Shown here piece by piece: positions 893 through 23,765 of a DNA stretch of 64,000 nt. Numbering within the stretch: the first letter of the stretch is position 1; every line of letters begins with the position of its first letter. The position numbers were made by a program, and so were the translations under genes. The stretch is taken from the IMG/VR virus record IMGVR_UViG_3300042350_002797, positions 248,001-312,000 of that record; one strand, given 5' to 3'. The notes below the pieces were generated by a model. The model made no database searches. It saw only the letters and a list, made by a program, of their open reading frames with translations, and was not told the DNA's origin. The stretch is from a virus.

Positions 893-982
893 TGGCGGAA
901 GCGGTGAGATTCGAACTCACGGAACATTTCTGTTCGTCTGTTTTCAAGACAGGTGCAATAAACCGGACTCTGCCACACTTCC
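893..982 (-). tRNA. tRNA-Ser(TGA)
   Basis: Acceptor stem GGAAGTG pairs with CGCTTCC. The anticodon loop CTTGAAA gives TGA. There is a long variable arm as expected for Ser, a normal T-loop (TTCGAAT), and CCA is encoded. It is the last tRNA of the array in transcription order. Confidence 0.95.
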
Positions 983-1001
983 ATAATACTTATACTAATA
1001 T

Positions 1002-1093
1002 TGGTACCAGCGGTAGGAATCGAACCTACTCAAGAACGCTAATCTGGCGCTAAAAGGTGTATAAGACCTCTCTGACTTCCAAGTCTCGCTGGC
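1002..1093 (-). tRNA. Type II (long variable arm) tRNA with apparent TAT anticodon
   Basis: Acceptor GCCAGCG/CGCTGGT with A73 and encoded CCA, T-stem GTAGG/CCTAC with loop TTCGATT. The best anticodon arm is GAGGT-CTTATAC-ACCTT, giving anticodon TAT with A37, i.e. Ile decoding AUA. A 24-nt variable region folds as AGCGC-CAGATTA-GCGTT, a Leu/Ser/Tyr-like long arm that Ile tRNAs lack. Position 8 is A rather than T, and the D-arm (GAC/GTC) is short. It is clearly a tRNA by its ends; the amino-acid identity is unresolved. Confidence 0.65.
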
Positions 1094-1112
1094 ATATTTG
1101 GTAGGAAAAATT

Positions 1113-1186
1113 TGGTAGCCCGTGACAGAATCGAACTGCCGTAACCGCCGTGTAAAGACGGAGTTCTACCATTAAACTAACGGGCC
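1113..1186 (-). tRNA. tRNA-Val(TAC)
   Basis: Acceptor GGCCCGT/ACGGGCT, anticodon arm CCGTC-TTTACAC-GGCGG giving TAC, T-loop TTCGATT, A73 and encoded CCA. Confidence 0.95.
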
Positions 1187-1240
1187 TTAAATTCTCTAAG
1201 ATAAGAATTTCGTTTTGTATCTTTTTTGTATCGTCTGTAG

Positions 1241-1265
1241 TTTCTACCAACTGAGCTAACCTCCC
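1241..1265 (-). pseudogene. 5' half of a decayed tRNA
   Basis: The minus strand reads GGGAGGTTAGCTCAGTTGG followed by TAGA, a canonical acceptor 5' strand, T8-A9 and D-arm. No anticodon arm, T-arm or matching 3' acceptor strand follows within the next 60 nt before tRNA-Val. It is best explained as a truncated tRNA remnant. The amino-acid type cannot be determined. Confidence 0.6.
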
Positions 1266-1334
1266 ATACAGGAACACACTCACGTTTCTTATGTCTCTAT
1301 ATGCTATCTGCATATCGAGTGTGTTTTTATATGG
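1264..1334 (-). other. Inter-tRNA spacer hairpin H1
   Basis: ACACACTC (1274-1281) pairs with GAGTGTGT (1317-1324). The stem can be extended outward so that the CCA end of tRNA-Glu faces the 5' GGG of the tRNA remnant. An inner hairpin ATATGC/GCATAT lies in the loop. It resembles H3 (3451-3535), with compensatory stem changes. Confidence 0.55.
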
Positions 1335-1407
1335 CGTCCCGTACCGGATTCGAACCGGTGTGTTCGCCGTGAAAGGGCGGTATCCTAGGCCTCTAGATGA
1401 ACGGGAC
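1332..1407 (-). tRNA. tRNA-Glu(TTC)
   Basis: Acceptor GTCCCGT/ACGGGAC, anticodon loop CTTTCAC giving TTC, T-loop TTCGAAT, G73 and encoded CCA. Confidence 0.95.
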
Positions 1408-1483
1408 TTTGTTTTTAAAATTGTTAAAGAACACTTACTATGCCAACAGTATACAATCTTACTTTGTTACTGTCAACAGTATT

Positions 1484-1559
1484 TGGTGCTGCCTCCAGGT
1501 TACGATCCTGGTTCCTCGGTTCTTCAGACCGGTGCTATGACCACATCAGCTAAAGCAGC
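1484..1559 (-). tRNA. tRNA-Phe(GAA), unusual T-loop
   Basis: Acceptor GCTGCTT/AGGCAGC, anticodon loop CTGAAGA giving GAA, A73 and CCA encoded. The T-stem CCAGG/CCTGG is perfect, but the loop is ATCGTAA instead of TTCGANN, so T54 and A58 are exchanged to A54 and T58. Confidence 0.92.
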
Positions 1560-1561
1560 TT

Positions 1562-1637
1562 TGGGGTGTCCTACCGGTATCGATCCGGTACTTCCAGTTT
1601 CACAGACTAGTATGCAGGCCACTACATTAAGGACACC
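1562..1637 (-). tRNA. tRNA-His(GTG)
   Basis: The extra G-1 opposite C73, diagnostic for His, is present. Acceptor GTGTCCT/AGGACAC, anticodon loop CTGTGAA giving GTG, CCA encoded. The T-loop ATCGATA has A54. Confidence 0.95.
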
Positions 1638-1643
1638 ATTGTT

Positions 1644-1718
1644 TGGCACCGCCTAAGAGAATCGAACTCCTATTTCCTGGTTCGCAACCAAGTGTACTAT
1701 CCATTGTACTAAAGCGAT
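1644..1718 (-). tRNA. tRNA-Arg(GCG)
   Basis: Acceptor ATCGCTT/AGGCGGT with two G-T pairs, anticodon arm CTTGG-TTGCGAA-CCAGG giving GCG, T-loop TTCGATT, G73 and encoded CCA. GCG is uncommon in bacteria, where CGN is usually read by ACG; reading it as Arg assumes no wobble editing. Confidence 0.85.
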
Positions 1719-1731
1719 AATAAATATTGCC

Positions 1732-2451
1732 ATGGAACTTCTTGATATATTATATACACCACTGGATCTGCCTGCTCCGCCTACTTGCAATGCACAATCT
1801 ATAATTGATTGGATCGATCATAATAAAGAACAATTAGAACCTTACAAACAATATGCATATGATAATGAATTAACTTCTGAAAAAAATACTAAAGTTAAAT
1901 GGCCTTGGAACATGGGGCTTGCTTATCTTAATTGGCAAGATCAAGGACCTGGGTGGCTATGTAACTTTGACAAAGAGTTTCCAGAACTCAGTAAGTATAT
2001 GTACGAAGTATTTGAAATACCTTTAGAAGATTTAGGTACTATTGTAATACTGCCTGTAAGACACAAACATACTGGCATGGGATTCATGCACCAGGATCCT
2101 GGTAACTTTGGTCTTAGAATATATTTGGAGTTCGAGCATATAGGAAAAAATAAATTGTTTTTACAAAAAACAAGAGTTCCTTATATTAAAAGACCTAAGT
2201 ATGAACCGCCAGTAGATCCAAAAATTTTACAACCAGAATTAATTGAATGTCGAACATTTTCTAATAGAGGTTGTTGGTTTATTAATAATACTCGTGCATT
2301 CCACGGTACATATACTGAAGTAGAAGACAGTACAAGAATTGCTGTTATTGTTAGTGGCAATCCTCGAAGTGATGCTAAAATCTATGACAGACTTAAAAAT
2401 AAAATCATAGCCTCTGCCGAAAAATACAAAGACTATGCAGTGTTATGGTAA
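1732..2451 (+). CDS. 2-oxoglutarate/Fe(II)-dependent oxygenase-like protein (239 aa)
   Basis: This plus-strand gene is inserted in a minus-strand tRNA array. Residues about 115-140 contain FMHQDPGNFGLRIYL, which supplies an HxD iron-binding pair, and the distal histidine is in AFHGTYTE near residue 191. This is the double-stranded beta-helix arrangement of aspartyl/prolyl-hydroxylase-like enzymes common in aquatic phages. No good Shine-Dalgarno sequence precedes the ATG. The last codons (TGG TAA) overlap the CCA end of the convergent tRNA-Gln. Substrate unknown; it could modify host or virion proteins. Confidence 0.7.
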   Translation: MELLDILYTPLDLPAPPTCNAQSIIDWIDHNKEQLEPYKQYAYDNELTSEKNTKVKWPWNMGLAYLNWQDQGPGWLCNFDKEFPELSKYMYEVFEIPLEDLGTIVILPVRHKHTGMGFMHQDPGNFGLRIYLEFEHIGKNKLFLQKTRVPYIKRPKYEPPVDPKILQPELIECRTFSNRGCWFINNTRAFHGTYTEVEDSTRIAVIVSGNPRSDAKIYDRLKNKIIASAEKYKDYAVLW

Positions 2452-2521
2452 GGGGTACAGGGATCGAACCTGTGACACGCGGAATCAAAATCCGCTGCTC
2501 TACCAACTGAGCTAACCCCCA
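2446..2521 (-). tRNA. tRNA-Gln(TTG)
   Basis: Anticodon arm GCGGA-TTTTGAT-TCCGC giving TTG. The gene starts with T1 as bacterial Gln tRNAs do (TGGGGGT/ACCCCTT, with a T1-T72 mismatch). T-loop TTCGATC, A73, encoded CCA. The CCA end overlaps the last codons of the convergent oxygenase gene. Confidence 0.9.
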
Positions 2522-2528
2522 ATAAACT

Positions 2529-2804
2529 ATGAAAGACAGAATACCAACTAATCTAAGACGCATGGTAATTGAAAGAGATGGTCTTCGATGTGTTTATTGT
2601 GACTTAGATTTAACAAACAATGAAGTTCATCTAGATCATGTAATACCTGAATCTAAAGGTGGAAGAACATCGTTTGATAATTTACAAGTTACTTGTAGAA
2701 AATGTAATCTTGAAAAAGGTATTCTGACTGAAAGCGAATTCGTAAATAAGTTACGAACCAGAGCTTTAAATATTCTTAGTAGAATAGGTAATGGTGGAGG
2801 ATAA
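2529..2804 (+). CDS. HNH endonuclease (91 aa)
   Basis: Residues 20-65 hold the HNH core: CVYCDLD supplies two Cys, HLDHVIPESKGG the His-Asp-His region, FDNLQVTC the Asn, and CRKCNLEKG the second Cys pair. Such enzymes cut DNA with one metal ion and often act as homing nucleases. It lies on the plus strand between two tRNA genes, and its last codons (GGA GGA TAA) run into the 3' acceptor strand of tRNA-Ala. Placement and orientation fit a free-standing mobile HNH gene. Whether it targets the tRNA locus is inference. Confidence 0.85.
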   Translation: MKDRIPTNLRRMVIERDGLRCVYCDLDLTNNEVHLDHVIPESKGGRTSFDNLQVTCRKCNLEKGILTESEFVNKLRTRALNILSRIGNGGG

Positions 2805-2865
2805 CAGAATCGAACTGTTAATCTCGGCTTGCAAAGCCGATGTTATCCCATTTAACTAATCCCCC
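2792..2865 (-). tRNA. tRNA-Ala(TGC)
   Basis: Acceptor GGGGGAT/ATCCTCC, anticodon arm TCGGC-TTTGCAA-GCCGA giving TGC, T-loop TTCGATT, A73 and encoded CCA. The 3' end overlaps the 3' end of the convergent HNH gene. Confidence 0.95.
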
Positions 2866-2867
2866 AG

Positions 2868-3113
2868 TTATTCTACATCTTTCTTGTCAACACAAGTTTC
2901 GCCTCTGAACACATAAACATCGCTGTCTATTCTCAGTTGTTCAAATACTTGATTGTTTACACAGATGAATGGATCTTTATGATTTTGAGCATAGTAATAC
3001 GCACCGTATCCTATGCCACCTAAAATCATAAGAATAGGAATATATTTTAAGAATGATATAATCTGAGGCATCATGCCTAAAATTTGCGGTAGTTTTTCCA
3101 ATAATTCTTTCAT
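2868..3113 (-). CDS. Small single-pass membrane protein (81 aa)
   Basis: One membrane segment spans about residues 21-42 (FLKYIPILMILGGIGYGAYY). It is followed by a soluble tail with two cysteines (ICVNNQVFEQL and GETCVD) that could form a disulfide if periplasmic. No family recognised with confidence. It lies within the tRNA array in the same direction as the tRNAs and ends 2 nt before tRNA-Ala. Confidence 0.65.
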   Translation of the reverse strand: MKELLEKLPQILGMMPQIISFLKYIPILMILGGIGYGAYYYAQNHKDPFICVNNQVFEQLRIDSDVYVFRGETCVDKKDVE

Positions 3114-3130
3114 ACTGTTATTTAACTGGT

Positions 3131-3206
3131 CTTGGTTGTTTGCCGCACAACCAAGGAAAGCGGGGGTCTGTTGTTGACAATTTGTCCTACTCTACGCCGT
3201 CAACAA
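3131..3206 (-). other. Two spacer hairpins (H2a, H2b)
   Basis: CTTGGTTGT (3131-3139) pairs perfectly with ACAACCAAG (3147-3155) over a 7-nt loop. TTGTTGAC (3171-3178) pairs perfectly with GTCAACAA (3199-3206) over 20 nt. They fill the gap between tRNA-Asn and the small membrane protein gene; neither is followed by a T-run typical of a terminator. Confidence 0.5.
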
Positions 3207-3216
3207 GGGCGAGTAT

Positions 3217-3291
3217 TGGCTCCGAGAGTAGGGATCGAACCTACGACCAAAAGATTAACAGTCTTCTGCACTACCGCTGTGCTATCTCGGA
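3217..3291 (-). tRNA. tRNA-Asn(GTT)
   Basis: Acceptor TCCGAGA/TCTCGGA, anticodon loop CTGTTAA giving GTT, T-loop TTCGATC, G73 and encoded CCA. Confidence 0.95.
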
Positions 3292-3301
3292 ATAAACTTT
3301 A

Positions 3302-3375
3302 TGGTACCCTTGGAAGGTAACGCTCCTACGTCTTTCGATTATCAGTCGAGTGCTCTACTTTTGAGCTACAAGGGC
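3302..3375 (-). tRNA. tRNA-Ile(GAT), unusual T-loop
   Basis: Acceptor GCCCTTG/CAAGGGT, anticodon loop CTGATAA giving GAT, A73 and encoded CCA. The T-stem GTAGG/CCTTC has one mismatch and the loop is AGCGTTA, lacking the usual TTC. Confidence 0.88.
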
Positions 3376-3377
3376 AT

Positions 3378-3452
3378 TGGTAGTAGTGGTAAGAGTCGAA
3401 CTTACACTGTACACCGTATGAAGGTGCTGCACTACCATTATGCTACACTACC
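3378..3452 (-). tRNA. tRNA with CAT anticodon (Met or Ile2)
   Basis: Acceptor GGTAGTG/CACTACT, anticodon arm GCACC-TTCATAC-GGTGT giving CAT, T-loop TTCGACT, A73 and encoded CCA. The G1-T72 pair excludes a normal initiator (C1 x A72). Elongator Met versus lysidine-modified Ile2 cannot be settled by eye. Confidence 0.9.
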
Positions 3453-3535
3453 ATATAGAAACACATTCTTGGGCTCTCGTAACAGTAGCCCATAGCTCCG
3501 GACGCCATTATGTGTTTGAATGTGTTTTTATATGG
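3451..3535 (-). other. Inter-tRNA spacer hairpin H3
   Basis: Bases 3451-3468 (containing ACACATTC) pair almost perfectly over 17-18 bp with 3518-3535 (containing GAATGTGT). In the transcript this places the CCA end of tRNA-Lys directly against the 5' GG of the next tRNA. An inner stem TGGGCT/AGCCCA lies in the loop. Confidence 0.6.
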
Positions 3536-3609
3536 TAGGTGCGGTGAGACTCGAACTCACAACTTATCGGTTAAAAGCCGATTACTCTAACCAGTTGAGT
3601 TACGCACCC
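3533..3609 (-). tRNA. tRNA-Lys(TTT)
   Basis: Acceptor GGGTGCG/CGCACCT, anticodon loop CTTTTAA giving TTT, T-loop TTCGAGT, A73 and encoded CCA. Its 5' end overlaps the stop codon of the small ORF at 3600-3716. Confidence 0.95.
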
Positions 3610-3716
3610 ATTCTTACTCCGTATAACTGCCACATAATTGCGGCTAGCTTATGCTTGTTTTGATATGTGTAACCATATCTTAGCAATCCGCCTTTACAGC
3701 TCTTGTCACTATCCAT
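3600..3716 (-). CDS. Small ORF overlapping tRNA-Lys (38 aa)
   Basis: ATG at 3716 is preceded by AAGGAG seven bases upstream, a strong Shine-Dalgarno sequence. The product begins MDSDKSCKGGLLRYGYTY and ends YGVRMGA; it is basic and aromatic with no recognisable family. The stop codon (TAA) lies inside the 5' acceptor strand and positions 8-9 of tRNA-Lys, so translation would run into the mature tRNA boundary. The ribosome site is the main evidence that it is a gene. Confidence 0.5.
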   Translation of the reverse strand: MDSDKSCKGGLLRYGYTYQNKHKLAAIMWQLYGVRMGA

Positions 3717-3728
3717 AACAGGATCTCC

Positions 3729-3788
3729 TTATCTTAAATTTTTGTGTATATAAATTACTAAAATTCCAACCATTATTATAACTGTCAC
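3729..3788 (-). CDS. Possible 19-aa membrane peptide
   Basis: A GTG-started frame of 19 codons encodes an almost purely hydrophobic peptide (VIIMVGILVIYIHKN core). AAGGAG lies about 13-15 bases upstream, nearer to an ATG that opens only three codons, so initiation is uncertain. It ends just before the Shine-Dalgarno sequence of the 38-residue ORF. Confidence 0.25.
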   Translation of the reverse strand: MTVIIMVGILVIYIHKNLR

Positions 3789-3813
3789 GCCCCCATGATA
3801 TTTCTCCTTATAA

Positions 3814-3888
3814 TGGCGACTCGTAGGAGAATCGAACTCCTGTGTCCGGATAGACAGTCCAGCATAATTACCTCTATATGAACGAGCC
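3814..3888 (-). tRNA. tRNA-Asp(GTC)
   Basis: Acceptor GGCTCGT/ACGAGTC, anticodon loop CTGTCTA giving GTC, T-loop TTCGATT, G73 and encoded CCA. Confidence 0.95.
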
Positions 3889-3890
3889 AT

Positions 3891-3964
3891 TGGCTCCGGT
3901 GGAGGGAATCGAACCCCCACTAACGGTTTTGGAGACCGTCGCACTGCCATTATACTACACCGGA
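3891..3964 (-). tRNA. tRNA-Trp(CCA)
   Basis: Acceptor TCCGGTG/CACCGGA, anticodon arm ACGGT-CTCCAAA-ACCGT giving CCA, T-loop TTCGATT, G73 and encoded CCA. Only two bases separate it from tRNA-Asp. Confidence 0.93.
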
Positions 3965-3970
3965 ATTATT

Positions 3971-4058
3971 TGGTGGGTGCTGATGGTAACGCTCCACGAA
4001 CCTGACTTCCTATCTCTTAAGGTAACGGTTTTACAGACCGCCGACAGGGGCAACACCC
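3971..4058 (-). tRNA. tRNA-Tyr(GTA), shortened D-arm
   Basis: Acceptor GGGTGTT/AGCACCC, anticodon arm GCGGT-CTGTAAA-ACCGT giving GTA, long variable region, A73, encoded CCA. Only about ten bases separate the acceptor and anticodon stems, so no standard D-arm can form. The T-loop is AGCGTTA. It may be a divergent functional tRNA or one losing function. Confidence 0.75.
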
Positions 4059-4165
4059 ATAACACTCTCACGCTATGCGTGTCAAGGGTGACTAGAGAGT
4101 GTGTATTAAAAAGCACTACTCATCTGCTTGCGCAATTTGACTGTTCGGCAATGCTTTTTAATACG
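4059..4165 (-). other. Hairpins H4 and H5 upstream of tRNA-Tyr
   Basis: ACACTCTC (4062-4069) pairs with GAGAGTGT (4095-4102) around an inner CACGC/GCGTG stem, and abuts the tRNA-Tyr 5' end. TATTAAAAAGCA (4104-4115) pairs perfectly with TGCTTTTTAATA (4152-4163). No tRNA or ORF with a ribosome site was found in 4059-4275; the rest holds only short inverted repeats. Confidence 0.5.
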
Positions 4166-4275
4166 CTACCATTTTTTTATCCACACAAGGATAATCCATC
4201 CGGTAGGCCGCCCTTTTACTGGATGTTTATAGTGCCCAGCGAGGTCCTCGTTACCTCTTTACACACTGTACTGCT

Positions 4276-4313
4276 AAAAACAAAAAACCCCAGGGTTTCT
4301 AATCCTAGGGTCC
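4276..4313 (-). terminator. Rho-independent-like terminator
   Basis: On the minus strand an imperfect GC-rich stem (ACCCTAGG with CCCTGGGGT) is followed by TTTTTTG and TTTTTAG. It follows the 43-residue ORF and precedes the tRNA array, so tRNA transcription from the promoters upstream would need read-through. Confidence 0.65.
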
Positions 4314-4338
4314 TTTGAAGTTTGTGTTTTGTATTTTA

Positions 4339-4470
4339 CTACGTTACACGATCCTCCATGGACCCTTTACCTGGTGTACGATCATTACTCTCAATCGTTG
4401 ACCAATAAGAGGGCATAAAGCTCCCTTGCTTGGCTATCGTTTTGATTGTATAATGAATCGTGTGTTGCAT
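4339..4470 (-). CDS. Small ORF behind tandem promoters (43 aa)
   Basis: ATG at 4470 follows AGGA with normal spacing (TTTAGGAACAAAAATG). The product starts MQHTIHYTIKTIAKQ and ends KGSMEDRVT; no family recognised, no signal or membrane segment. It lies directly downstream of two consensus promoters and is followed by a terminator, so it is probably abundantly transcribed early. A leader-peptide role for the tRNA operon is possible but unproven. Confidence 0.55.
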   Translation of the reverse strand: MQHTIHYTIKTIAKQGSFMPSYWSTIESNDRTPGKGSMEDRVT

Positions 4471-4500
4471 TTTTGTTCCTAAAAATTAACTTATGATGTT

Positions 4501-4529
4501 ATTGTATAGTCTAATTTGATTGCTGTCAA
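4501..4529 (-). promoter_or_regulatory. Sigma70-type promoter P2
   Basis: Minus strand TTGACA, exact 17-base spacer, TACAAT. It lies about 30 nt upstream of the 43-residue ORF. Confidence 0.75.
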
Positions 4530-4588
4530 CAACTTTTTACCTTTTTGGCAAAGTTGCTATACTTGCAACAAAACTCAACTATGCTTCT

Positions 4589-4617
4589 ATTATATGAGTA
4601 TTTATATCTTTTGTCAA
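4589..4617 (-). promoter_or_regulatory. Sigma70-type promoter P1
   Basis: Minus strand TTGACA, exact 17-base spacer, TATAAT: a full consensus promoter in tandem with P2, feeding the 43-residue ORF and the tRNA array. Confidence 0.8.
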
Positions 4618-4667
4618 GAACTAGTCTGAAATGTGGTATTTTTACGACATTAGTTATTAAATAACAG

Positions 4668-5246
4668 ATGCATAGATTATTACATTACGAAGATTATATT
4701 CAGTTAGAATTACCTGTTAATAAAAACGCAATTGATTTGGAATCTTTAAACTGGATGCCTTATAATCCTAGAAAGAATATAAATCGATTTGGTTGTAGTA
4801 TTACAAGTTTAGATGGCAATGATTCTGGAATACCAGATCTAGATAGTTTAACAGAATATAATCGTTTACACGGCACAAAGTATACTGAAAAAGATTTTTC
4901 GAAACCTACAGTTCATGCTACACCATTCTTAGATTTTTTGAATACGTTTACAGTAGGACGTAGTCATTATTTAAAACTGAATCCTGGAGGGTTTTTTCCT
5001 TGGCATAGGGATAATGATCCAACTACTTTTAGAATAATCTACACAATCCAAAATTGTTCAAATCATTCAATGATTTGGTTAGAAGACGATAAGATCTTGC
5101 CTTTAGAAAATCATTCTTGGTATTATATAAACACTAGAAAAAAACATGCTTTATTTTCTTTTGATGGATCTATAATGGCTGTTTTTAATGTAGTGTTTAA
5201 TACTACAACATATAATTTACTTCAAAACAGTATGATGATAAAGTAA
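4668..5246 (+). CDS. Aspartyl/asparaginyl beta-hydroxylase-like oxygenase (192 aa)
   Basis: Residues about 100-125 read LNPGGFFPWHRDNDPTTFR, giving the HxD iron pair (H-R-D). The distal histidine lies in NTRKKHALFSF. This is the layout of phage 2-oxoglutarate/Fe(II) hydroxylases. It is a single plus-strand gene, divergent from the tandem promoters at 4501-4617 and convergent with pqqA, closed by a bidirectional terminator. The substrate is unknown. It is distinct in sequence from the oxygenases at 1732-2451 and 17270-17827. Confidence 0.72.
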   Translation: MHRLLHYEDYIQLELPVNKNAIDLESLNWMPYNPRKNINRFGCSITSLDGNDSGIPDLDSLTEYNRLHGTKYTEKDFSKPTVHATPFLDFLNTFTVGRSHYLKLNPGGFFPWHRDNDPTTFRIIYTIQNCSNHSMIWLEDDKILPLENHSWYYINTRKKHALFSFDGSIMAVFNVVFNTTTYNLLQNSMMIK

Positions 5247-5275
5247 AAGGACCCGAAGGTCCTTTTATTTTTGTA
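5245..5275. terminator. Bidirectional terminator
   Basis: AAAAGGACC-CGAA-GGTCCTTTT with T-runs on both strands, between the convergent oxygenase gene and pqqA. Confidence 0.85.
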
Positions 5276-5283
5276 ATTACTAA

Positions 5284-5358
5284 TTAACGATTAGCAATAT
5301 ACATGGTGATTTCGAAACCGAAGCGCATATCGGTTGCTGATGGAGTAGTCCAATTCAT
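5284..5358 (-). CDS. pqqA: PqqA, pyrroloquinoline quinone precursor peptide (24 aa)
   Basis: The 24-residue product ends GFEITMYIANR and begins MNWTTPSATDMR. Proteobacterial PqqA peptides are 23-24 residues with the same W-x-x-P start, FGFEVTMY core and YxANR end. The Glu (E16) and Tyr (Y20) that PqqE cross-links and that become PQQ are present with the required E-x3-Y spacing. AAAGGA lies eight bases before the ATG. It is downstream of rubrerythrin, DUF3501 and a 102-residue gene on the same strand. No pqqB-E is in the window, so maturation would rely on host enzymes or genes elsewhere. Confidence 0.88.
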   Translation of the reverse strand: MNWTTPSATDMRFGFEITMYIANR

Positions 5359-5379
5359 GTTAATTTCCTTTCTAAGTTA

Positions 5380-5398
5380 ACATACTGCATTAGTATGT
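5380..5398 (-). promoter_or_regulatory. Inverted repeat in pqqA leader
   Basis: ACATACT-GCATT-AGTATGT lies 22 bases before the pqqA start. It could be an operator or a leader hairpin. No clear promoter hexamers were found in 5399-5468. Confidence 0.35.
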
Positions 5399-5468
5399 AT
5401 CTGTATTTTACAATGTTTTTACCATAAAGTACATACAGATAATCATTAAAAGACTATCAGCTGATTAT

Positions 5469-5777
5469 TTAGGAAATTTTTAATACAGTTAGAAGTGCTT
5501 CTTCTTTACTCCAAAACGCCCAATACCATTTACCGTGTGTATCACGGCTTAAAAATATTGGAGCCATTTTATAACCGGTGTCTACCATTTGATTATGACA
5601 AGTATCCCAATTACTCCATGTGATTCCATTTCGTAAATTCGTTTTGACCCTATCTGCTGGATTAATAATCAATACAACTTCGGGAGGGTTATCAAAATAC
5701 CTAGTACGTTGCTGATCAACTTCGTAGTAGGGTATATATTTGTCTAACCAATCAAGCCAAGATACTATTTTCATCAA
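5469..5777 (-). CDS. Hypothetical protein (102 aa)
   Basis: A soluble, Trp-rich protein (WLDWLDKYIP start; NGITWSNWDTCHNQM and GKWYWAFWSKEEA later). No family recognised. Its start overlaps the 3' end of the DUF3501 gene by 26 bases, so it is co-transcribed with rubrerythrin and DUF3501 and lies between them and pqqA. Confidence 0.65.
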   Translation of the reverse strand: MMKIVSWLDWLDKYIPYYEVDQQRTRYFDNPPEVVLIINPADRVKTNLRNGITWSNWDTCHNQMVDTGYKMAPIFLSRDTHGKWYWAFWSKEEALLTVLKIS

Positions 5778-6348
5778 AATCCTTGACCAACATTTCCTTA
5801 GTCAAAGTATTTACTCTAGTATATTCTTTATAAGAAGGATGATCTGAACCGACAGTAAATGCTGTGTTAAGATCACGCAAGTCTGCTATCATTTCTGGTG
5901 TTAGTTCGAAACGTAAAAAATGTACTGCGGCGGTTTTAGTATCTGTGCTGCGATCCATATCTTCATCAGCAATAGCATACACAGGTTGATGACCTTCTAC
6001 TTTAACATAGATGCGATCTTCTACACCGTGTAGTTCTTCTAACTTTTGAGTACGTACAGTTGGATCGCTGTATTCTATAGTTAGTGTGGCTTTTAAATTT
6101 GTACCTGTGGGAATAAGTGGATTGTAAGCGTCTAACTCGTCTTGAATACCTTCAGAGGTAAATGTTTTTTCGATTAATAACATTTCCTGTATTTGATATT
6201 TTACAGTAACACGATCTTCAAAATGAAGAGTCATATGATCGCCTAATTCTACTTGGCGATGTTTTCTATGATTAACAGCGTGTCGTTTGAAATCATTTCT
6301 AATACGACTGTATTCTTCCAGTGAATGTAAGTCTTTATGTGTAAGCAT
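5752..6348 (-). CDS. DUF3501 family protein (198 aa)
   Basis: The sequence follows the DUF3501 family along its length: SLEEYSRIRNDF at the start, LHFEDRVTVKYQIQEML, the DELDAYNPLIPTGTNLKAT block, RIYVKVEGHQPVYAIADED and KTAAVHFLRFEL. In bacteria these genes typically sit beside a rubrerythrin and an Fe-S oxidoreductase; their biochemical role is unknown but an oxidative-stress link is assumed. Here rubrerythrin is directly upstream and the Fe-S oxidoreductase partner is missing. AAAGG precedes the ATG. The length is normal, so it looks intact. Confidence 0.9.
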   Translation of the reverse strand: MLTHKDLHSLEEYSRIRNDFKRHAVNHRKHRQVELGDHMTLHFEDRVTVKYQIQEMLLIEKTFTSEGIQDELDAYNPLIPTGTNLKATLTIEYSDPTVRTQKLEELHGVEDRIYVKVEGHQPVYAIADEDMDRSTDTKTAAVHFLRFELTPEMIADLRDLNTAFTVGSDHPSYKEYTRVNTLTKEMLVKDFDENSILA

Positions 6349-6360
6349 GATGTACCTTTG

Positions 6361-6382
6361 AAAAAAGGGGACTAGGTCCCCT
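6361..6382 (-). terminator. Terminator between rubrerythrin and DUF3501
   Basis: Minus strand AGGGGAC-CTA-GTCCCCT followed by TTTTTT. It may reduce DUF3501 expression relative to rubrerythrin. Confidence 0.75.
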
Positions 6383-6397
6383 ATTAAGTGCTACAAA

Positions 6398-6835
6398 TTA
6401 AACGTTGTCTGCTTTGTAAGCATCAAGTGTCTTCTGAAACTTGCCAGCATGGCTACGCTCTGCCTTAGCAAGAGTGTCGAACCAATCAGCAATTTCATCA
6501 AAACCTTCTTCACGAGCATCACGAGCCATGCCAGGGTACATGTCAGTGTACTCATGTGTTTCGCCATGAATAGCACTTTCAAGAGCCTGCACAATGTTCT
6601 TAGCTGGTAGACCGGTTTCTGGATCACCGCTACCGCCATCAATCAAATATTCCATGTGACCATGTGCGTGACCTGTTTCACCTTCTGCGGTATGACGGAA
6701 GATGTTAGCAACATCAGTTGCTCCGGCGATGTCAGCCATGTTCGCGAAATACAAGTAACGACGATTTGCTTTTGATTCGCCTGCGAACGCATCCTTCAAA
6801 TGCTGTTCTGTTTTGGTTCCTACTAATTTTGCCAT
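6398..6835 (-). CDS. Rubrerythrin-family diiron protein (145 aa)
   Basis: A ferritin-like four-helix diiron domain: E20 in [13 protein letters not shown]51-x-E53-x2-H56 in [10 protein letters not shown], the HGETHEY helix near residue 92, and E126-x2-H129 in [10 protein letters not shown]. Rubrerythrins reduce hydrogen peroxide using a diiron centre. The C-terminal rubredoxin domain of classical rubrerythrins is absent, so electrons must come from another carrier. AAGGAGA precedes the ATG. It has its own promoter at 6889-6917 and is followed by a terminator. Confidence 0.92.
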
Positions 6836-6868
6836 TTTAAGTCTCCTTGTGTGTAAAAAATGGTACAG

Positions 6869-6881
6869 CAGTTTAAAACTG
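6869..6881 (-). promoter_or_regulatory. Palindrome at the rubrerythrin transcription start
   Basis: CAGTTT-A-AAACTG is a perfect dyad centred about 14 bases downstream of the -10 box, well placed for a repressor operator. Confidence 0.45.
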
Positions 6882-6888
6882 TCTTAAT

Positions 6889-6917
6889 ATTATATGTTTA
6901 TTTAATCTATAAATCAA
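6889..6917 (-). promoter_or_regulatory. Promoter of the rubrerythrin operon
   Basis: Minus strand TTGATT, 17-base spacer, TATAAT, 54 bases upstream of the rubrerythrin ATG. Confidence 0.75.
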
Positions 6918-6969
6918 GCGATTTCAATAGATTTCTTATGGTATTTTTCTATAGAGACAATAGATAAAA

Positions 6970-6993
6970 TTAAAGGACCGAAAGGTCCTTTAA
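6970..6993. terminator. Bidirectional terminator
   Basis: TTAAAGGACC-GAAA-GGTCCTTTAA directly follows the coiled-coil membrane protein gene. Confidence 0.85.
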
Positions 6994-7617
6994 TTAATTG
7001 GCTAGCGGATTGTCTAAGGCTTTTTTGATCTTATCATCGATTTCTCGACGAAGTTGTTTGATTTCTTGCTGTGTTTCTTTTTGGTTACGTGTAAGTTCTT
7101 GATTAATTTCTTTAATAGTTTGATCGCTGTAACGACGTATGTCTTTAATAGCATTGTCACTTTCTTTACGTATTTCTTTTACAGCCGAATCTACTTCTTT
7201 TTTTGTACTGTTTACTGTTTGGTCAGCATCACGTAGTCCACTTTTGCTACTACGCTCCACATTCTCTACCACAGTTTCTAAACGACGTATATCATTTTTT
7301 AAATCATTTTTGATATCTTGTGTATATTCTGTGCTCTTGTTTACGCTAGCTTCAATGACTTCTAATTTCTTTTCTAGTTCACTGAGATCAGGTGCTACAT
7401 AGTTTGCTATTTTATCTTTCATATCCATATAGTCTTTATAAACTTCGAATGCTCCATAAAGACCACCTAGTATGGTACTAACAATAGTGCCGGCTATCAT
7501 TAATTTAGCAGGAGTAAATTCATAACCACCAATACTGATAACAGTGTTAGCACTGGCATACTTTTCTGCTGCTTCTTCTAATTTGTCTACTTGTTCGTCT
7601 ATATTTTTATTTGACAT
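6994..7617 (-). CDS. Membrane-anchored coiled-coil protein (207 aa)
   Basis: One hydrophobic segment lies at about residues 36-58 (KLMIAGTIVSTILGGLYGAF). From about residue 75 to the end the sequence is charged and heptad-like (long KKEVDSAVKEIRKESDNAI runs), predicting an extended coiled coil. Similar small coiled-coil membrane proteins occur in marine T4-like phages without a known role. The stop codon abuts the terminator stem. Confidence 0.7.
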   Translation of the reverse strand: MSNKNIDEQVDKLEEAAEKYASANTVISIGGYEFTPAKLMIAGTIVSTILGGLYGAFEVYKDYMDMKDKIANYVAPDLSELEKKLEVIEASVNKSTEYTQDIKNDLKNDIRRLETVVENVERSSKSGLRDADQTVNSTKKEVDSAVKEIRKESDNAIKDIRRYSDQTIKEINQELTRNQKETQQEIKQLRREIDDKIKKALDNPLAN

Positions 7618-7626
7618 TTTGTTTCT

Positions 7627-7656
7627 TTACGAATTTTTCTCTAGAGAAAAATTCAT
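7627..7656 (-). CDS. Nine-codon ORF coinciding with a 24-bp palindrome
   Basis: GGAGG precedes ATG at 7656; the frame encodes nine residues (MNFSLEKNS) and stops 9 bases before the coiled-coil gene start. Bases 7631-7654 are a perfect palindrome (arms GAATTTTTCTCT and its complement). It may be a leader peptide, an operator, or an RNA hairpin. Confidence 0.35.
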   Translation of the reverse strand: MNFSLEKNS

Positions 7657-7665
7657 AACGCCTCC

Positions 7666-7803
7666 TTATTTTTTAGTAATGAATGGAATCATATTGATGT
7701 ATTTTTGTAAGTTTTTTTCTTGAAAACTTTTTGCCCAACTTGGTTGCGGTAAGTTCCAACCTACAAATGCTCCGACTACGATCCAAAATAATGTTTCTAA
7801 CAT
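7666..7803 (-). CDS. Small membrane protein (45 aa)
   Basis: ATG at 7803 follows AGGGGACC. The product begins MLETLFWIVVGAFVGWNLPQ, a single N-terminal membrane segment, then a basic tail ending MIPFITKK. Comparable tiny proteins accompany tail or membrane genes in marine T4-like phages. The stop is followed directly by GGAGG for the next ORF. Confidence 0.6.
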   Translation of the reverse strand: MLETLFWIVVGAFVGWNLPQPSWAKSFQEKNLQKYINMIPFITKK

Positions 7804-10326: not shown

Positions 10327-11730
10327 TTAAAAACTAAGTTGGCTTCTAAACATTACAGCACGGTCACCGTTTACACGACTACCTGAACTGCCTACCAGAC
10401 TGTCAAACTTTGTGTCTACATAATTTAACATAAAACGTAGATTATCTGTACAGAACCAAGTGATACCGTAAGTCATTGCAGTAGCACGATTAGATTTGCC
10501 TGTTGCTACTGATATGTCGCTGGCATCAAACTCACTCATACGCACACCCACTTGCCAAGCACCACGACCACCTTTGTCAACGGGATTGTTTGGTTTGATC
10601 CAACCAAATGCGCCATCTTTATAAGCGTGTGATTCTCCTGTTAGGTTGTACACAGCTTGAACATAGTATCCATTTATTTTCTGATCGTTGCCTGTTGCTG
10701 GATCATAATTGAATTGGAACTGTTCGCCCTGTACCTTAAAAGCATTATAAGCAAATGCAGCTTCGAGTCCCTGTCGTGTTCTTGTAGTCGCATCGCTAAG
10801 GGCGGACCCGGTGAACCATGCTGACTGCATACGTGACTCTGTTCTGCCACTTACTGGAATAACACCACTTTTAATTTCGCCTGTACTGTAAGCAGCACCT
10901 AAGTGTGCTGTATATGCTTTGCTTCCGGTTAGTTCAGCAATGTTTGTGGTTATACGACCAATGTAATCAAAGCCATCAAACTCGGCACTCTTATTACTCT
11001 TGCCTCTGCTTAATGCTAGAGCGTATGTTAATCCAGGTTTAGGAATACCGTGTAGCATGAATCCGGTTTCTTTAGCAGGAATTAATTCGCTATCGTTTTG
11101 ACCAATCAAACTACGCTCCATAAAATCTAGATTGTTTGAACTAGTCATTTGTTCTAAACTGAAAGGCATTTTAAACAAACCAAATTGAAATTGCATTTCA
11201 GGATTAGCAGCCCAGTTAACCCACATTTCATCTGCTGTACTTGATGTGGAACTAAAACCATCGCTTGCACCAAAGTTTGCTAACAATTGATATTTGAAAT
11301 CTTTGGCAAACTGTCCTCTTATTCCAAATCTGGCTCGTCGTGCTTCAGCGGTGTTTTGATACGAATCCGTGGTTTGACCTGTACCGTAATCCGGGGAGTA
11401 CTGACGATAGTCCATATGTAGTCTACCTGTAAGTTGGACGGTATTGTTGCCATCTTTACTTTTAAGTCCGATTCCGTTTTCAGTGACTGACCCATCATTA
11501 GCCTTTGTAAATCTTGAATTGTTGTTATCACGCAAATCTTTATCAATACGAGCAGCATTAAACTGTTTGTTCTCTAAACGCTCTGCGTGTGCTTCAATTT
11601 TTGTGTTGTACTCTTGTTGAGTAATAATACCTTTTTGTAGTAGAATATCAAGTGTGTCTTTATATTCATCTGCAACAGCCGGTGCTGCAAAGCACAAGGC
11701 CATAGCAGCTATGATCGTAATTTTTTTCAT
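10327..11730 (-). CDS. oprP: Phosphate-selective porin OprO/OprP family (467 aa)
   Basis: A cleavable signal peptide (MKKITIIAAMALCFAAPAVA) is followed by a short coiled-coil region (KGIITQQEYNTKIEAHAERL) and then a beta-barrel with the family blocks VQLTGRLHMDYRQY, RRARFGIRGQFAKDFKYQL, QFGLFKMPFSLEQMTSSN, ERSL and a terminal SQLSF. The terminal Phe is the usual signal for outer-membrane barrel assembly. OprP-type trimers pass phosphate through the outer membrane. It lies 9 bases after pstS in the same operon, so phage-directed phosphate capture is the likely role. Confidence 0.92.
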   Translation of the reverse strand: MKKITIIAAMALCFAAPAVADEYKDTLDILLQKGIITQQEYNTKIEAHAERLENKQFNAARIDKDLRDNNNSRFTKANDGSVTENGIGLKSKDGNNTVQLTGRLHMDYRQYSPDYGTGQTTDSYQNTAEARRARFGIRGQFAKDFKYQLLANFGASDGFSSTSSTADEMWVNWAANPEMQFQFGLFKMPFSLEQMTSSNNLDFMERSLIGQNDSELIPAKETGFMLHGIPKPGLTYALALSRGKSNKSAEFDGFDYIGRITTNIAELTGSKAYTAHLGAAYSTGEIKSGVIPVSGRTESRMQSAWFTGSALSDATTRTRQGLEAAFAYNAFKVQGEQFQFNYDPATGNDQKINGYYVQAVYNLTGESHAYKDGAFGWIKPNNPVDKGGRGAWQVGVRMSEFDASDISVATGKSNRATAMTYGITWFCTDNLRFMLNYVDTKFDSLVGSSGSRVNGDRAVMFRSQLSF

Positions 11731-11739
11731 GTCTATCCC

Positions 11740-12765
11740 TTATTTCCAAATTGGATTGTTGTCCGGACCTTTAAGATCCCGTTTCCAGTTATCCTGTACT
11801 AATTTGATAACTGACTGCGGCAAGTGAACATATTCTAAATCTTCACTCATCTTGGCACCGTTCTTGTAACTCCAATCAAAGAATTTAAGAACTGCACGAC
11901 CCGTTAATGCGTCAGCTTGTTGCTTGTGCATAAGGATAAAACTAGCACCAGTGATAGGCCAAGCATCCTTACCTTTTTGATCTGTAAGCAACAAATACAT
12001 GCCTGGAGCACTGTTCCAGTCTGCGTTGGCTGCTGCGGCCTTGAATGTGTCATCGCTAGGCTGTACAAAGTTACCATCACGATTTTTGACTTGTGCGTGT
12101 GGAATCTTGTTGCGTTTAGCATAGGCATATTCTACATAACCGATACTATTTTTTAACTGTTGAACTACAGCACTTACACCTTCATTGCCTTTACCGCCTA
12201 CACCTACCGGCCATTTAACTGCTGTACCATCCTTAACTTTATCTGCCCATTCTGGATTAGTTTTGCTTAACCAGTTAGTCCATATAAAGGTTGTGCCTGA
12301 ACCATCACTGCGGTGAACCACAGAGATATTTGCGTTAGGTAATTTAAGTCCTGGATTAATTGCTGTGATACTAGGATGATCCCACTTGGTAATCTTGCCC
12401 ATATAGATATCAGCAATAACGTCCGAAGTAAGTCTAAGTTGTCCAGCAGCAACACCATCGATGTTAACGATTGGCACAACACCGCCTATAATAGCAGGAA
12501 ATTGCATTAGACCTTCTTTGTCTAATTCATCTTGTTTTAGTGGCATGTCACTAGCACCAAAGTCTACAATCTTAGCTTTGATTTGACGGATACCACCGCC
12601 AGAGCCAATTGATTGATAATTTAAACCAATACCAGTCGCGGCTTTGTATGCTTCGGCCCATTTACTGTAGATTGGATATGGAAATGTAGCACCTGCTCCG
12701 GTTAAATCTGCTGCGGATGCTAGAGAGGATACTGCTAATAAAACTGTTGCGATAAGATTTCGCAT
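11740..12765 (-). CDS. pstS: PstS, periplasmic phosphate-binding protein (341 aa)
   Basis: A signal peptide (MRNLIATVLLAVSSLASA) precedes the PstS signatures: GAGATFPYPIYSKWAEAY, YQSIGSGGGIRQI, DFGASDMPL, VVHRSDGSGTTFIWTNWL and GSGGGI-type phosphate-contact residues. PstS delivers phosphate to the PstABC transporter, which is not in this window and would be host-encoded. PstS is a known auxiliary gene in cyanophages. A candidate Pho box lies 63-80 bases upstream, implying PhoB-type control. Confidence 0.95.
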   Translation of the reverse strand: MRNLIATVLLAVSSLASAADLTGAGATFPYPIYSKWAEAYKAATGIGLNYQSIGSGGGIRQIKAKIVDFGASDMPLKQDELDKEGLMQFPAIIGGVVPIVNIDGVAAGQLRLTSDVIADIYMGKITKWDHPSITAINPGLKLPNANISVVHRSDGSGTTFIWTNWLSKTNPEWADKVKDGTAVKWPVGVGGKGNEGVSAVVQQLKNSIGYVEYAYAKRNKIPHAQVKNRDGNFVQPSDDTFKAAAANADWNSAPGMYLLLTDQKGKDAWPITGASFILMHKQQADALTGRAVLKFFDWSYKNGAKMSEDLEYVHLPQSVIKLVQDNWKRDLKGPDNNPIWK

Positions 12766-13524: not shown

Positions 13525-15009
13525 TCATTTATTGTAGTTCAATTTATTAACTACGTATTTTTTCAAATACTCATAAACTCCTGGATTTTTCCAAAAATCT
13601 GAATCGACGTTAGCATAGCCTATCGTTGCTTCTCTAGAATCAATCCATCGCTTGTTCGCTGCTTCCTGAAAATCTAAATCAAAAATTAATCTTTGTTCTC
13701 CAATTAACCACGCACTGACTAGTGACTCTCCTTTATGACATAAAGGATGATTAATGACCGTATCGTATGCTCCTTCGTATGATGTTCCTGTTTCATAATT
13801 AATCCAGTTAATTACATCATCAGTATCATTATCTTCTTTTAAATTAGTATATCCGTATTTTTCATAGTTTTCGGATATTGAGTTAGATTCTTTTCCTATT
13901 CTTTTATTTCGATTGTAAATATTCAGAGGATAAAAAGTAGGAGCACAACATTCCAAATTATCTCTAATCCATTTTATACCGTTGAGGAAACTATCGTAAG
14001 TTTCATGCGGAAGCCCACAGATAAAAGTAGTTCTACTACGATAGAAACTTCTTTGCGAAAAATATTTTTCAATATCTAACAAACCCTGTTTAACTTTATC
14101 TGGATGCATGCCTTTTTTAATCGATTTACCTGTTGGATGATTAAAACTTTCTATTCCGTATGTATGTCCAGTATATCCCATAGCAATCATGTCATCCCAC
14201 GTTTCAGGGTGTGCTATCATTAAGTCTATCCTGGTAAATGCCATAATCCAAGGATCGAAATTTATTTTTGATTGTGTAGCTTCTGCTAGTAATTTTAATT
14301 TTTCTGGATTAACATTGGCTGTACTATCGGCACTGAAAAAGGTTGTAACTCCAAAATTTTCATAAAGATAGTTCATATTATCTACATAATTTTGTACTTC
14401 TCTAAAATTGTCACCTTTAACTCCTAAAGGTTGATATGTACAAAAGTCGCAACTAAATTTACATCCTCTGCTCCATTCTATACCTAATTGTTCATTAGAT
14501 TGAATAAAATCTCTTGCTTCATATTTTAAAGTAAGATCTTTCATAAAAATAGAAGGATAATCTAACGTAGCTTTAATTAACTTACCTTTTCCGTACAACG
14601 TATATTTTAGTTTTTCGGTATTAGTTCCTAAGATGTTTTTAATAACTTCTATCATAGCATTTTCGCCATATCCTTCTATATAATAATCTGCTGGTATAGG
14701 ACTTCTGATAATTTTTTGTCCACCAACAATTATTTTAACTCTTGGAAATTTATTTCTTAACCAATTAGTAAGTTCGGAAAAGTCCAGCTGATGCACAGTT
14801 CCCCAGGTGTCACTGAAACCTATAAAGATAGTTTTATCAGATACTCTGGTTTTAACAATCTTTGTTATGTATTCCACACCAATTAATCCAGCATAGTCTA
14901 TTACTTCTACGTCCCAGTCATGACTTCTTAAAAAACTAGCAATTTTATGTGCTCCGAGATTTCTCGTAATAAACACATTTTGAATACTGATAATAATAGC
15001 ATGATTCAT
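13525..15009 (-). CDS. Radical SAM protein with cobalamin-binding-like N-terminus (494 aa)
   Basis: Residues about 5-115 form a Rossmann-like domain as in B12-binding radical SAM enzymes (FSDTWGTVHQL, VKIIVGGQKI, YYIEGYGENAM), without an obvious DxHxxG cobalt-ligand motif. The [4Fe-4S] motif is WSRGCKFSCDFC (C-x3-C-x2-C). A GIESFNHPTGKS block and ICGLPHET follow, typical of this family. It is a tandem paralogue of the next gene. The substrate is unknown. Confidence 0.85.
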   Translation of the reverse strand: MNHAIIISIQNVFITRNLGAHKIASFLRSHDWDVEVIDYAGLIGVEYITKIVKTRVSDKTIFIGFSDTWGTVHQLDFSELTNWLRNKFPRVKIIVGGQKIIRSPIPADYYIEGYGENAMIEVIKNILGTNTEKLKYTLYGKGKLIKATLDYPSIFMKDLTLKYEARDFIQSNEQLGIEWSRGCKFSCDFCTYQPLGVKGDNFREVQNYVDNMNYLYENFGVTTFFSADSTANVNPEKLKLLAEATQSKINFDPWIMAFTRIDLMIAHPETWDDMIAMGYTGHTYGIESFNHPTGKSIKKGMHPDKVKQGLLDIEKYFSQRSFYRSRTTFICGLPHETYDSFLNGIKWIRDNLECCAPTFYPLNIYNRNKRIGKESNSISENYEKYGYTNLKEDNDTDDVINWINYETGTSYEGAYDTVINHPLCHKGESLVSAWLIGEQRLIFDLDFQEAANKRWIDSREATIGYANVDSDFWKNPGVYEYLKKYVVNKLNYNK

Positions 15010-15011
15010 GG

Positions 15012-16445
15012 TTAACGTCCTGCAATAGATTTTAACATACTTTTATATTTGTTGAATAATCGTGCTTCGTGATCGTAGATATCTCCACACAAATTTAATA
15101 TTTCTTTAGTACCTAAATTGGTTAATTGTTCCATCTTAAATCCCAACGCAGTAAATGCACCTAAACTCCATGCAAACGCCTTATCTTGAACTCTTATATG
15201 TCTGTTCAATTCGCAAGCTAACTTATACGAATTAACATAGTTTGTGTCTCCCCAGACCCAGTAGGCAGGTTCTTTTTCGTCCGGCCATTCAATTTTTAAT
15301 TTCGAAGAATCTATTTCCCAAGTACTCATAGTGCTTTCTGCACCTTTTACCATAAGTAAAGGTTTAAAATTAAAAAATCCAAGTTTCGAATTTAAAAACC
15401 AATCAGCTAATTCATAATGATATTCGTTAGACACTCCGGGTAACCCTGCTATAAGACTACAATCAATATGAACTTTGTTCCAACGATTTCTTAATTCTAA
15501 TAAAAAATCTTTTCCTCTTTTTGCACTCCACGGTTTAAGAACTAATTTAGCACCTTCAGGATGAAAAGTTTCTATTCCAAACAGCACTGCTCTTAATCCA
15601 GAATCTTGAAGCATATCGATAGTATGAGGATGCTTATCGATTAAATCAGCTCTTCCATAAATTATGTATTCTAATTGAAACGGCAATTGTTGACTTACTT
15701 CGTGTAGAGTTTCTATTCTTTTTACATCAGCATTAAATGTTTCATCGACGAAATAATAACTAGTAGTTCCAAATCGTTCGTACATCTCTGTAAACACATC
15801 TACCATCAATTCTACACTTTTTTCATCGGACCCGCTTTTTTTACCTAAGTTTGGACTACGGCAGAAAGGACATTTGAATATACATCCACGGCCCCATTCC
15901 ATAGGTAAGCTTTCTCCAGGTAAAATACAATCGTGCTCTCTAAAAACAAATCTATGTGTATTAATGTCGAAAGATTTTCTTTTTAATTTTTGTGCTAATG
16001 GTTTATCAGTTAATTCGTCTAACAATTTAAGTAACCAGTCTTCTCCGTAGTCGATTATGCATTTGTAATCAAACACATCTAAATCTTCTAATTGATTATA
16101 AAATCTATGACCTCCTACAACTGTTTTAATTTTTGGAAATTCTTTTTTTATTTCAGATAAAGAAAAGTATATACTCTCGGGAACCTTTTTAGCATGTATG
16201 TTCATCATTAATTCTGAACTCCATGTTGACCACATACTAGAACTAGCACCGATCAAAATAGTATCGTCGTCGATGAACATTTTGGTATATTCTAACAATT
16301 CTTCTGGATCAAATAAATGTGTAAATTCTATTACTTGGCAAGTGTAACCATGTTCTTCGATCCATCGAGCTAATAGATAACAAGATATAGTTCTCCAAAT
16401 CAGTGGTCTATATCCTAATTGGTTGTATAAAATTACATTTGCCAT
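15012..16445 (-). CDS. Second radical SAM protein, tandem paralogue (477 aa)
   Basis: Same domain layout: an N-terminal Rossmann-like domain (IGASSSMWSTW, IKTVVGGHRF, CIIDYGEDWL), then WGRGCIFKCPFC (C-x3-C-x2-C), FVDETFNADVKR, FGIETFHPEGAK and LIAGLPGVSNE. Only 2 bases separate it from the downstream paralogue, so they are co-translated. The pair could form a heterodimer or do successive steps on one substrate. It is preceded by the terminator of the tmRNA gene. No DxHxxG motif is seen. Confidence 0.85.
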   Translation of the reverse strand: MANVILYNQLGYRPLIWRTISCYLLARWIEEHGYTCQVIEFTHLFDPEELLEYTKMFIDDDTILIGASSSMWSTWSSELMMNIHAKKVPESIYFSLSEIKKEFPKIKTVVGGHRFYNQLEDLDVFDYKCIIDYGEDWLLKLLDELTDKPLAQKLKRKSFDINTHRFVFREHDCILPGESLPMEWGRGCIFKCPFCRSPNLGKKSGSDEKSVELMVDVFTEMYERFGTTSYYFVDETFNADVKRIETLHEVSQQLPFQLEYIIYGRADLIDKHPHTIDMLQDSGLRAVLFGIETFHPEGAKLVLKPWSAKRGKDFLLELRNRWNKVHIDCSLIAGLPGVSNEYHYELADWFLNSKLGFFNFKPLLMVKGAESTMSTWEIDSSKLKIEWPDEKEPAYWVWGDTNYVNSYKLACELNRHIRVQDKAFAWSLGAFTALGFKMEQLTNLGTKEILNLCGDIYDHEARLFNKYKSMLKSIAGR

Positions 16446-23463: not shown

Positions 23464-23765
23464 TCTTCTTCTAATTTAATTTGTAAAGGAAACCCTTGAG
23501 ATCTAGAAATTGAAGTTGCTTCGACTGCTTTTACTTCTGCAATTTCAAAAGTGTAAACTCCAGCAATTCCACTTCCTTCATTATGTATCTGCATTGTAAT
23601 ATCTTTAGCAGTATCTTGGCTGTGTTTAAATATTGTAGTTAATACGGAAATTACAAAATCCATTGGAGTATAATCGTCATTTAACAAAATCACTTTCCAA
23701 CGTTTTGGTTCTTGTATATTTTGTTTGATTTTTTCGTCAATTTTTACGTCGTGTTCTACAGACAT
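23460..23765 (-). CDS. clpS: ClpS, N-degron adaptor for ClpA-type unfoldase (101 aa)
   Basis: WKVILLNDDYTPMDFVISVL is the ClpS core including the Asn-Asp pair that binds destabilising N-termini; AKDITMQIHNEGSGIAGVYTFEIAE completes the fold. AGGAG precedes the ATG. It is the first gene of a tightly overlapping operon (clpS, hemO, two desaturases, bilin reductase). It could redirect the host ClpAP protease. Confidence 0.95.
   Translation of the reverse strand: MSVEHDVKIDEKIKQNIQEPKRWKVILLNDDYTPMDFVISVLTTIFKHSQDTAKDITMQIHNEGSGIAGVYTFEIAEVKAVEATSISRSQGFPLQIKLEEE

Follow-up and report, generated by a model that had tools for sequence, protein, structure and literature searches.

Identification of a pqqA gene in a phage genome

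Positions 5284–5358 of the window (the whole 64,000-nucleotide stretch of viral DNA analysed) raise the question of whether a reading frame of only 24 codons can be a genuine pqqA gene, and of what a phage would do with it. PQQ is synthesized from the PqqA peptide, which is bound by PqqD and in which PqqE joins a Glu to a Tyr; proteases, PqqB and PqqC then finish the molecule, and one PqqA is spent for each PQQ made. The preliminary description of this DNA had placed a PqqA micro-gene here, with coordinates that proved right and no strand given; the plus strand is not open across this interval, and pqqA reads on the minus strand, from 5358 to 5284. The gene and its surroundings are as follows.

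5244–5267, minus strand, intrinsic terminator-like hairpin TAAAAGGACC-TTCG-GGTCCTTTTA, 3′ of pqqA
5284–5358, minus strand, pqqA, PQQ precursor peptide (PF08042 and TIGR02107), 24 codons plus stop, MNWTTPSATDMRFGFEITMYIANR
5366–5369, minus strand, Shine–Dalgarno AGGA, 7 nt ahead of the pqqA ATG, read from the sequence
5380–5398, minus strand, inverted repeat ACATACT-N5-AGTATGT, about 21 nt 5′ of the pqqA start codon
5469–5777, minus strand, ORF of 102 aa with a TTG start, of no known family, between DUF3501 and pqqA
5752–6348, minus strand, DUF3501 protein (PF12007, 220.5 bits)
6398–6835, minus strand, rubrerythrin without a rubredoxin domain (PF02915, 88 bits)

The peptide matched the Pfam PqqA model PF08042 with 40.9 bits (E-value 1.9e-10; positions 1–19 of 19) and the NCBIfam model TIGR02107 with 40.5 bits (E-value 1.7e-10; positions 1–21 of 21), far over the curated cut-offs of 21.1 and 20 bits, respectively. 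A lack of any PqqA HMM match, which had been named in advance as evidence against the gene, was therefore not what we found, and the scores rule out a chance match. This was the single PqqA match in a genome-wide search of the entire 364,554-base virus record, and the 14 control genomes gave no match. The Glu-x3-Tyr pair (FEITMY) and the YIANR ending that had been described are both present in the translation, where the Glu of FE and the Tyr of MY form the pair cross-linked by PqqE. With 24 aa and its own ribosome site, the product is in keeping with a short peptide of about 22–29 aa.

Upstream on the same strand lie the 102-aa ORF, DUF3501 and rubrerythrin, such that the rubrerythrin–DUF3501 block at the end of which pqqA had been placed does exist, with the 102-aa ORF intervening. 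On the 3′ side we observed one terminator-like hairpin against 0.1 expected by chance, and a search for a consensus sigma-70 promoter upstream of the gene found none. The perfect 7-bp inverted repeat at 5380–5398 occurs once in the window, and is a possible operator or leader hairpin. The phage location given in the preliminary description is upheld by the 364.6-kb virus record and by a virion structural protein encoded in the window (phrog_1645, 460 bits), which together rule out host-contig contamination for this record. An array of 14 tRNA genes (893–3964, minus strand) is found close to pqqA, and in some related phages (L298) pqqA seems to sit in a similar variable region.

Conservation of the locus in related phages

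A search with the DUF3501 protein returned 18 related viral loci. Intact pqqA genes directly follow DUF3501 in relatives at 100 %, 89 % (three relatives) and 70 % DUF3501 identity, and in a further relative (L269) a PqqA-like gene is located some 2 kb upstream. In a DNA alignment of the relatives the pqqA frame is kept, with changes mostly at synonymous sites and in the first few residues, and the flanks of the gene show much divergence; disruption of the frame in homologous phages, the second outcome that had been held to speak against the gene, was thus not observed. The terminator is retained along with the frame and the Shine–Dalgarno site, and the latter and the upstream inverted repeat are largely conserved, the repeat down to 70 % DUF3501 identity. 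PqqA HMM matches over the cut-off were obtained in 13 of 22 related or large phage records, nine of these 13 being DUF3501 relatives; in nine of the 18 DUF3501-related records, most of them fragments, the HMM search gave no PqqA over the cut-off.

Overlooked pqqA genes in named phages

When the 24-aa peptide was compared by tblastn with 50,697 phage records, 12 matched. Nine were Methylophilales phages of five lineages: Melnitz (four records), P19250A, Venkman, MEP301 and MEP401/MEP402; indeed, pqqA is present in every one of the nine named Methylophilales phage records that came up. A further match was the podovirus ctXG6705, and two matches to 'Acinetobacter phage MD-2021a' were discounted as probably bacterial DNA, since pqqA there heads a full pqqBCDE operon, one copy being located beside ppk. 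Every phage copy found by tblastn has a Shine–Dalgarno-like site and a proper stop. It had been suggested that gene callers miss pqqA, and in the isolates the gene in fact either lacks annotation or lies under an ORF called in antisense. Examples among the named records are these.

KX815270.1, 28082–28150, minus strand, P19250A pqqA, unannotated
MZ577095.1, 74882–74956, plus strand, Melnitz-1 pqqA, with an opposite-strand ORF annotated over it
MW202481.1, 2119–2190, plus strand, ctXG6705 pqqA, with an opposite-strand ORF annotated over it

In a distant DNA search of 3.7 kb of MEP402 against P19250A, Venkman, MEP301 and Melnitz, the only DNA shared was pqqA itself, a pattern that points to probable independent capture from a host pool. 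PqqA was described together with methanol dehydrogenase in Lake Baikal viruses in 2020 (PMC7678222), and pqqA was listed among virus-encoded genes in 2026 (PMC13188868); it was not reported in the phage isolate papers (PMC9004378, PMC10580990, PMC8024684, PMC8163748). P19250A was said to have none of the AMGs of the Lake Baikal study (PMC7678222), a statement that, for pqqA, is contradicted by the P19250A gene located here.

Distribution of pqqA among viruses

IMG/VR was scanned with degenerate DNA patterns of the PqqA core. The pattern TTYGGNTTYGARRTNACNATGTAY matched at least 120 stretches, all 120 listed being intact PqqA genes, whilst MTNGGN... matched 42, every one of them PqqA, including one truncated by the end of its contig. 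FEITMYIANR, the type found in the window itself, gave at least 119 matches and FEVTMYIANR gave 47. With a Methylobacterium-like (alphaproteobacterial) pattern, three of 12 matches were PqqA and nine were chance matches in unrelated ORFs, so degenerate patterns can fail. Two viral contigs (L352 and L359, one of 266 kb) have a Methylobacterium-type PqqA (GMEVTSY...IDTFN), which suggests that alphaproteobacterial phages may carry pqqA likewise.

All scans and the DUF3501 set together yielded at least 319 intact viral pqqA loci and six truncated at contig edges; none of these listed matches held a disrupted copy. The scanned loci represent 262 distinct 120-nt contexts, some being near-duplicates. 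Among the matches listed, a Shine–Dalgarno-like site precedes 317 of the 319 homologues, compared with 17 % of random ATGs. Outside the searched codons pN/pS was 0.31 (109 distinct genes among the TTYGGNTTYGARRTNACNATGTAY-pattern matches listed); values inside the searched codons are biased by the search and were left out. A stable hairpin follows within 60 nt of the stop in 60 of 76 loci with enough flank, a count that has no shuffled control behind it. PHROGs contains no PqqA family.

If pqqA were a neutral passenger, acquired along with host DNA and under no selection, its capture would be made easy by the many dispersed pqqA copies of hosts. The pN/pS of 0.31, hundreds of intact copies, near-constant Shine–Dalgarno-like sites (317 of 319 among the matches listed) and independent presence in otherwise unrelated phages all tell against this explanation, which was already disfavoured and which we consider very improbable. 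The same data bear on a decoy or sink, in which phage PqqA would occupy PqqD and PqqE and so slow host PQQ synthesis or starve a host function, much as short peptides binding a host chaperone could, by analogy, titrate it. Nothing would stop a decoy from losing its reactive residues; the viral peptides, however, retain the cross-linked Glu, the Tyr and the core, with the remainder under purifying selection, and many are identical to host PqqA. As such, a decoy role stands only a slight chance of being correct.

The flanks of related pqqA loci are viral. Among the matches listed for the FEITMYIANR type, pqqA has among its neighbours a T4-type ssDNA-binding protein in 23 loci, a clamp loader in 14, a late-promoter regulator in 45 and an endolysin in 46. 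These T4-type neighbours rule out host-contig contamination for the related loci taken together, and complete isolate genomes carry pqqA as well. In 27 of 128 related loci of this type (among the matches listed), and also in L297, the upstream neighbour of pqqA on the same strand encodes rubrerythrin, a peroxide scavenger. This association would fit a redox-protection cassette, whereby phage PqqA raises PQQ and the benefit is antioxidant, alongside rubrerythrin, rather than in methanol or alcohol oxidation; the window also has Fe–S assembly, heme oxygenase and chaperone genes, and no PQQ dehydrogenase was found in its phage. Small phages of several lineages, however, have pqqA with no rubrerythrin in the listed neighbourhood, the gene goes with methylotroph hosts and not with stress genes among named phages, and in one virus it occurs together with a quinoprotein dehydrogenase. 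We therefore regard a purely protective function as unlikely.

Search for further PQQ genes and PQQ-dependent dehydrogenases

There is no phage PQQ operon among the components searched. The check for pqqB–E in the rest of the record, proposed in the preliminary description, returned no qualifying match: PqqB and PqqD are absent from the whole 364,554-base record, and PqqE gave nothing over the cut-off there, the 23-bit match being a generic radical SAM protein. PqqC, searched in related records, was found in none of 50 related or pqqA-bearing viral records, with a positive control that matched in 11 of 12 host genomes. The same 50 records held no PqqE over the cut-off, 45 of them lacking any PqqE-like match. 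Candidate phage PqqE proteins matched TIGR02109 with 17–28 bits against a cut-off of 381, and those examined further were generic radical SAM proteins.

These phages do encode several radical SAM proteins, and in one relative (L292, 4798–5853) pqqA is followed after 87 bp, on the same strand, by a radical SAM ORF that fits no named family, an arrangement that would suit a phage enzyme turning PqqA into a different product. Against this, the pairing occurs in that relative only, the enzymes score far under every named maturase cut-off, and PqqE-like matches are missing from 45 of the 50 viral records; of the alternatives weighed here, this is the one we find hardest to credit.

No PQQ alcohol dehydrogenase was found in the window's phage, and one of 42 viral records searched had one. 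This record, IMGVR_UViG_3300025120_009955, encodes a full-length methanol dehydrogenase (608 bits) and a formate dehydrogenase alpha subunit (885 bits), and both dehydrogenases, pqqA and a quinoprotein-associated SoxYZ-like carrier fall inside 9 kb of a contig that also bears phage-type genes. Within its bases 31000–46000 (L517) the features lie at 2990–4864, 4944–7784, near 10885 (pqqA), 11071–11790 and 11821–12123; this virus-borne methylotrophy cluster also includes an RpoZ-like ORF. A search for pmoC, run without a positive control, gave no match.

Hosts and origin of the gene

All of 100 Methylophilaceae genomes contained pqqA, with 1–12 copies each. Members of this family have been described as holding 3–12 pqqA copies, the other pqq genes being single with one exception, and as having stand-alone copies away from pqqBCDE (PMC4109929). 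A lone pqqA is therefore no bar to membership of the PqqA family. By analogy, hosts multiply the substrate gene alone and phages would appear to follow the same logic. Genomes with the VMNK-tail pattern were those of Methylotenera, Methylophilus, Methylopumilus, OM43 and others, mostly Methylophilaceae. For phages of Methylophilaceae, pqqA is thus a homologue of a host metabolic gene, and many viral PqqA peptides are identical to those of hosts.

The window peptide (FEITMYIANR) is of another type. Its closest named matches are from Burkholderia and Caballeronia (87.5 %), and in the Methylophilaceae inspected, which had in part been selected with the VMNK pattern and whose type is FEVTMYVMNK, no IANR tail was observed. 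Because the peptide is nearest to the Burkholderia/Caballeronia type, this phage may infect something other than a methylotroph. Searches with PstS and DUF3501 among plasmids gave mixed best matches (Azospirillum, Burkholderia).

A proposed role in substrate supply

The explanation we prefer, and consider quite probable, is that phages carry a functional, host-derived pqqA as an auxiliary gene for substrate supply. The phage would make the PqqA peptide during infection; PqqD and PqqE of the host would bind the peptide and link its Glu to its Tyr, after which host proteases, PqqB and PqqC would complete PQQ. A presumed shut-down of host expression would stop renewal of the peptide long before the enzymes vanish; as PqqA is consumed one-for-one whilst the enzymes are catalytic and persistent, a 75-bp pqqA would be the cheapest way to sustain PQQ. 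The PQQ would then load periplasmic quinoprotein dehydrogenases, in methylotroph hosts XoxF-type methanol/alcohol dehydrogenases, which would sustain respiration for phage production. We infer the expression of pqqA, its use by host enzymes, the gain in PQQ and, for the host of the window's phage, the dehydrogenase that would benefit; the enzymes themselves are present in Methylophilaceae hosts.

In favour of substrate supply we count the 319 intact genes, the pN/pS of 0.31, the frame kept in relatives, the amplification of pqqA by hosts and the methanol-dehydrogenase contig; counting against it, hosts frequently possess several pqqA copies of their own, and substrate limitation is putative. 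The PqqA type of this phage, which differs from that of Methylophilaceae, the nine DUF3501-related records (mostly fragments) with no PqqA over the cut-off and the negative sigma-70 promoter search also weigh against it. As cited in PMC9851590, a cell-free extract turned added PqqA alone into PQQ at 70–80 % (Wang 2021), and one Methylovorus pqqA copy contributes dominantly, according to the title of that report (Ge 2015). A broader reading, to which we give an even chance, is that pqqA is near-universal and independently acquired in viruses of PQQ-producing methylotrophs and their relatives, overlooked as gene callers skip genes of 23–24 codons, and that repeated convergence on the consumed substrate, rather than the enzymes, sets PQQ-dependent methanol/alcohol oxidation in infected aquatic bacteria.

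Comparison with known systems

The nearest precedent is the Lake Baikal virus VP_266, T4-like and of about 35 % GC, for which a virus-encoded PqqA was likewise proposed as a methylotrophy auxiliary gene (PMC7678222). VP_266 encodes a methanol dehydrogenase, whereas no PQQ dehydrogenase was found in the window's phage, and its PqqA was treated as a single case, whereas here pqqA occurs in many viruses. Phage PqqA is therefore known as a kind; its prevalence, convergence and presence in cultured isolates appear new within the searchable literature. The window copy resembles bacterial PqqA (PF08042/TIGR02107) in length, motif, E-x3-Y spacing and full-length HMM match, and differs in standing alone in a phage without pqqBDE. 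It shares with the extra copies of Methylophilaceae (PMC4109929) the multiplication of pqqA alone, away from pqqBCDE, many viral peptides being identical; unlike them, it is virus-borne and has a Burkholderia-type IANR tail instead of VMNK.

The phage auxiliary genes psbA and pmoC each supply a single host-derived component of a host pathway and turn up in many unrelated phages that share a host group. In these respects pqqA would resemble them; what differs is that its component is a consumed peptide substrate, neither an enzyme nor a structural subunit. In lakes and coastal seas, PQQ-dependent methanol oxidation makes up a major carbon flux. Should viruses provide this expendable precursor of PQQ, infection would alter methanol carbon flux via one of the smallest metabolic genes known, one that current annotation of methylotroph phages misses. 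Cultured phage–host pairs exist (Venkman, Melnitz, MEP301, MEP401, MEP402 and P19250A), making the idea directly testable.

Additional features of the window

Several further genes were observed in the window. IscA-like (PF01521) and IscU-like (NifU_N, 174 bits) Fe–S assembly proteins are encoded side by side at 32301–32991, and a single run at 22921–26209 comprises heme oxygenase (PF01126), ClpS, a putative Hsp20-like small ORF and a full DnaK (857 bits). At 13525–16445 lie two adjacent radical SAM proteins, both weakly like PhpK-type P-methyltransferases and the first having a B12-binding-like domain. Finally, at 10327–12765 a PstS-like phosphate-binding protein adjoins a 467-aa exported protein, a putative phosphate porin.
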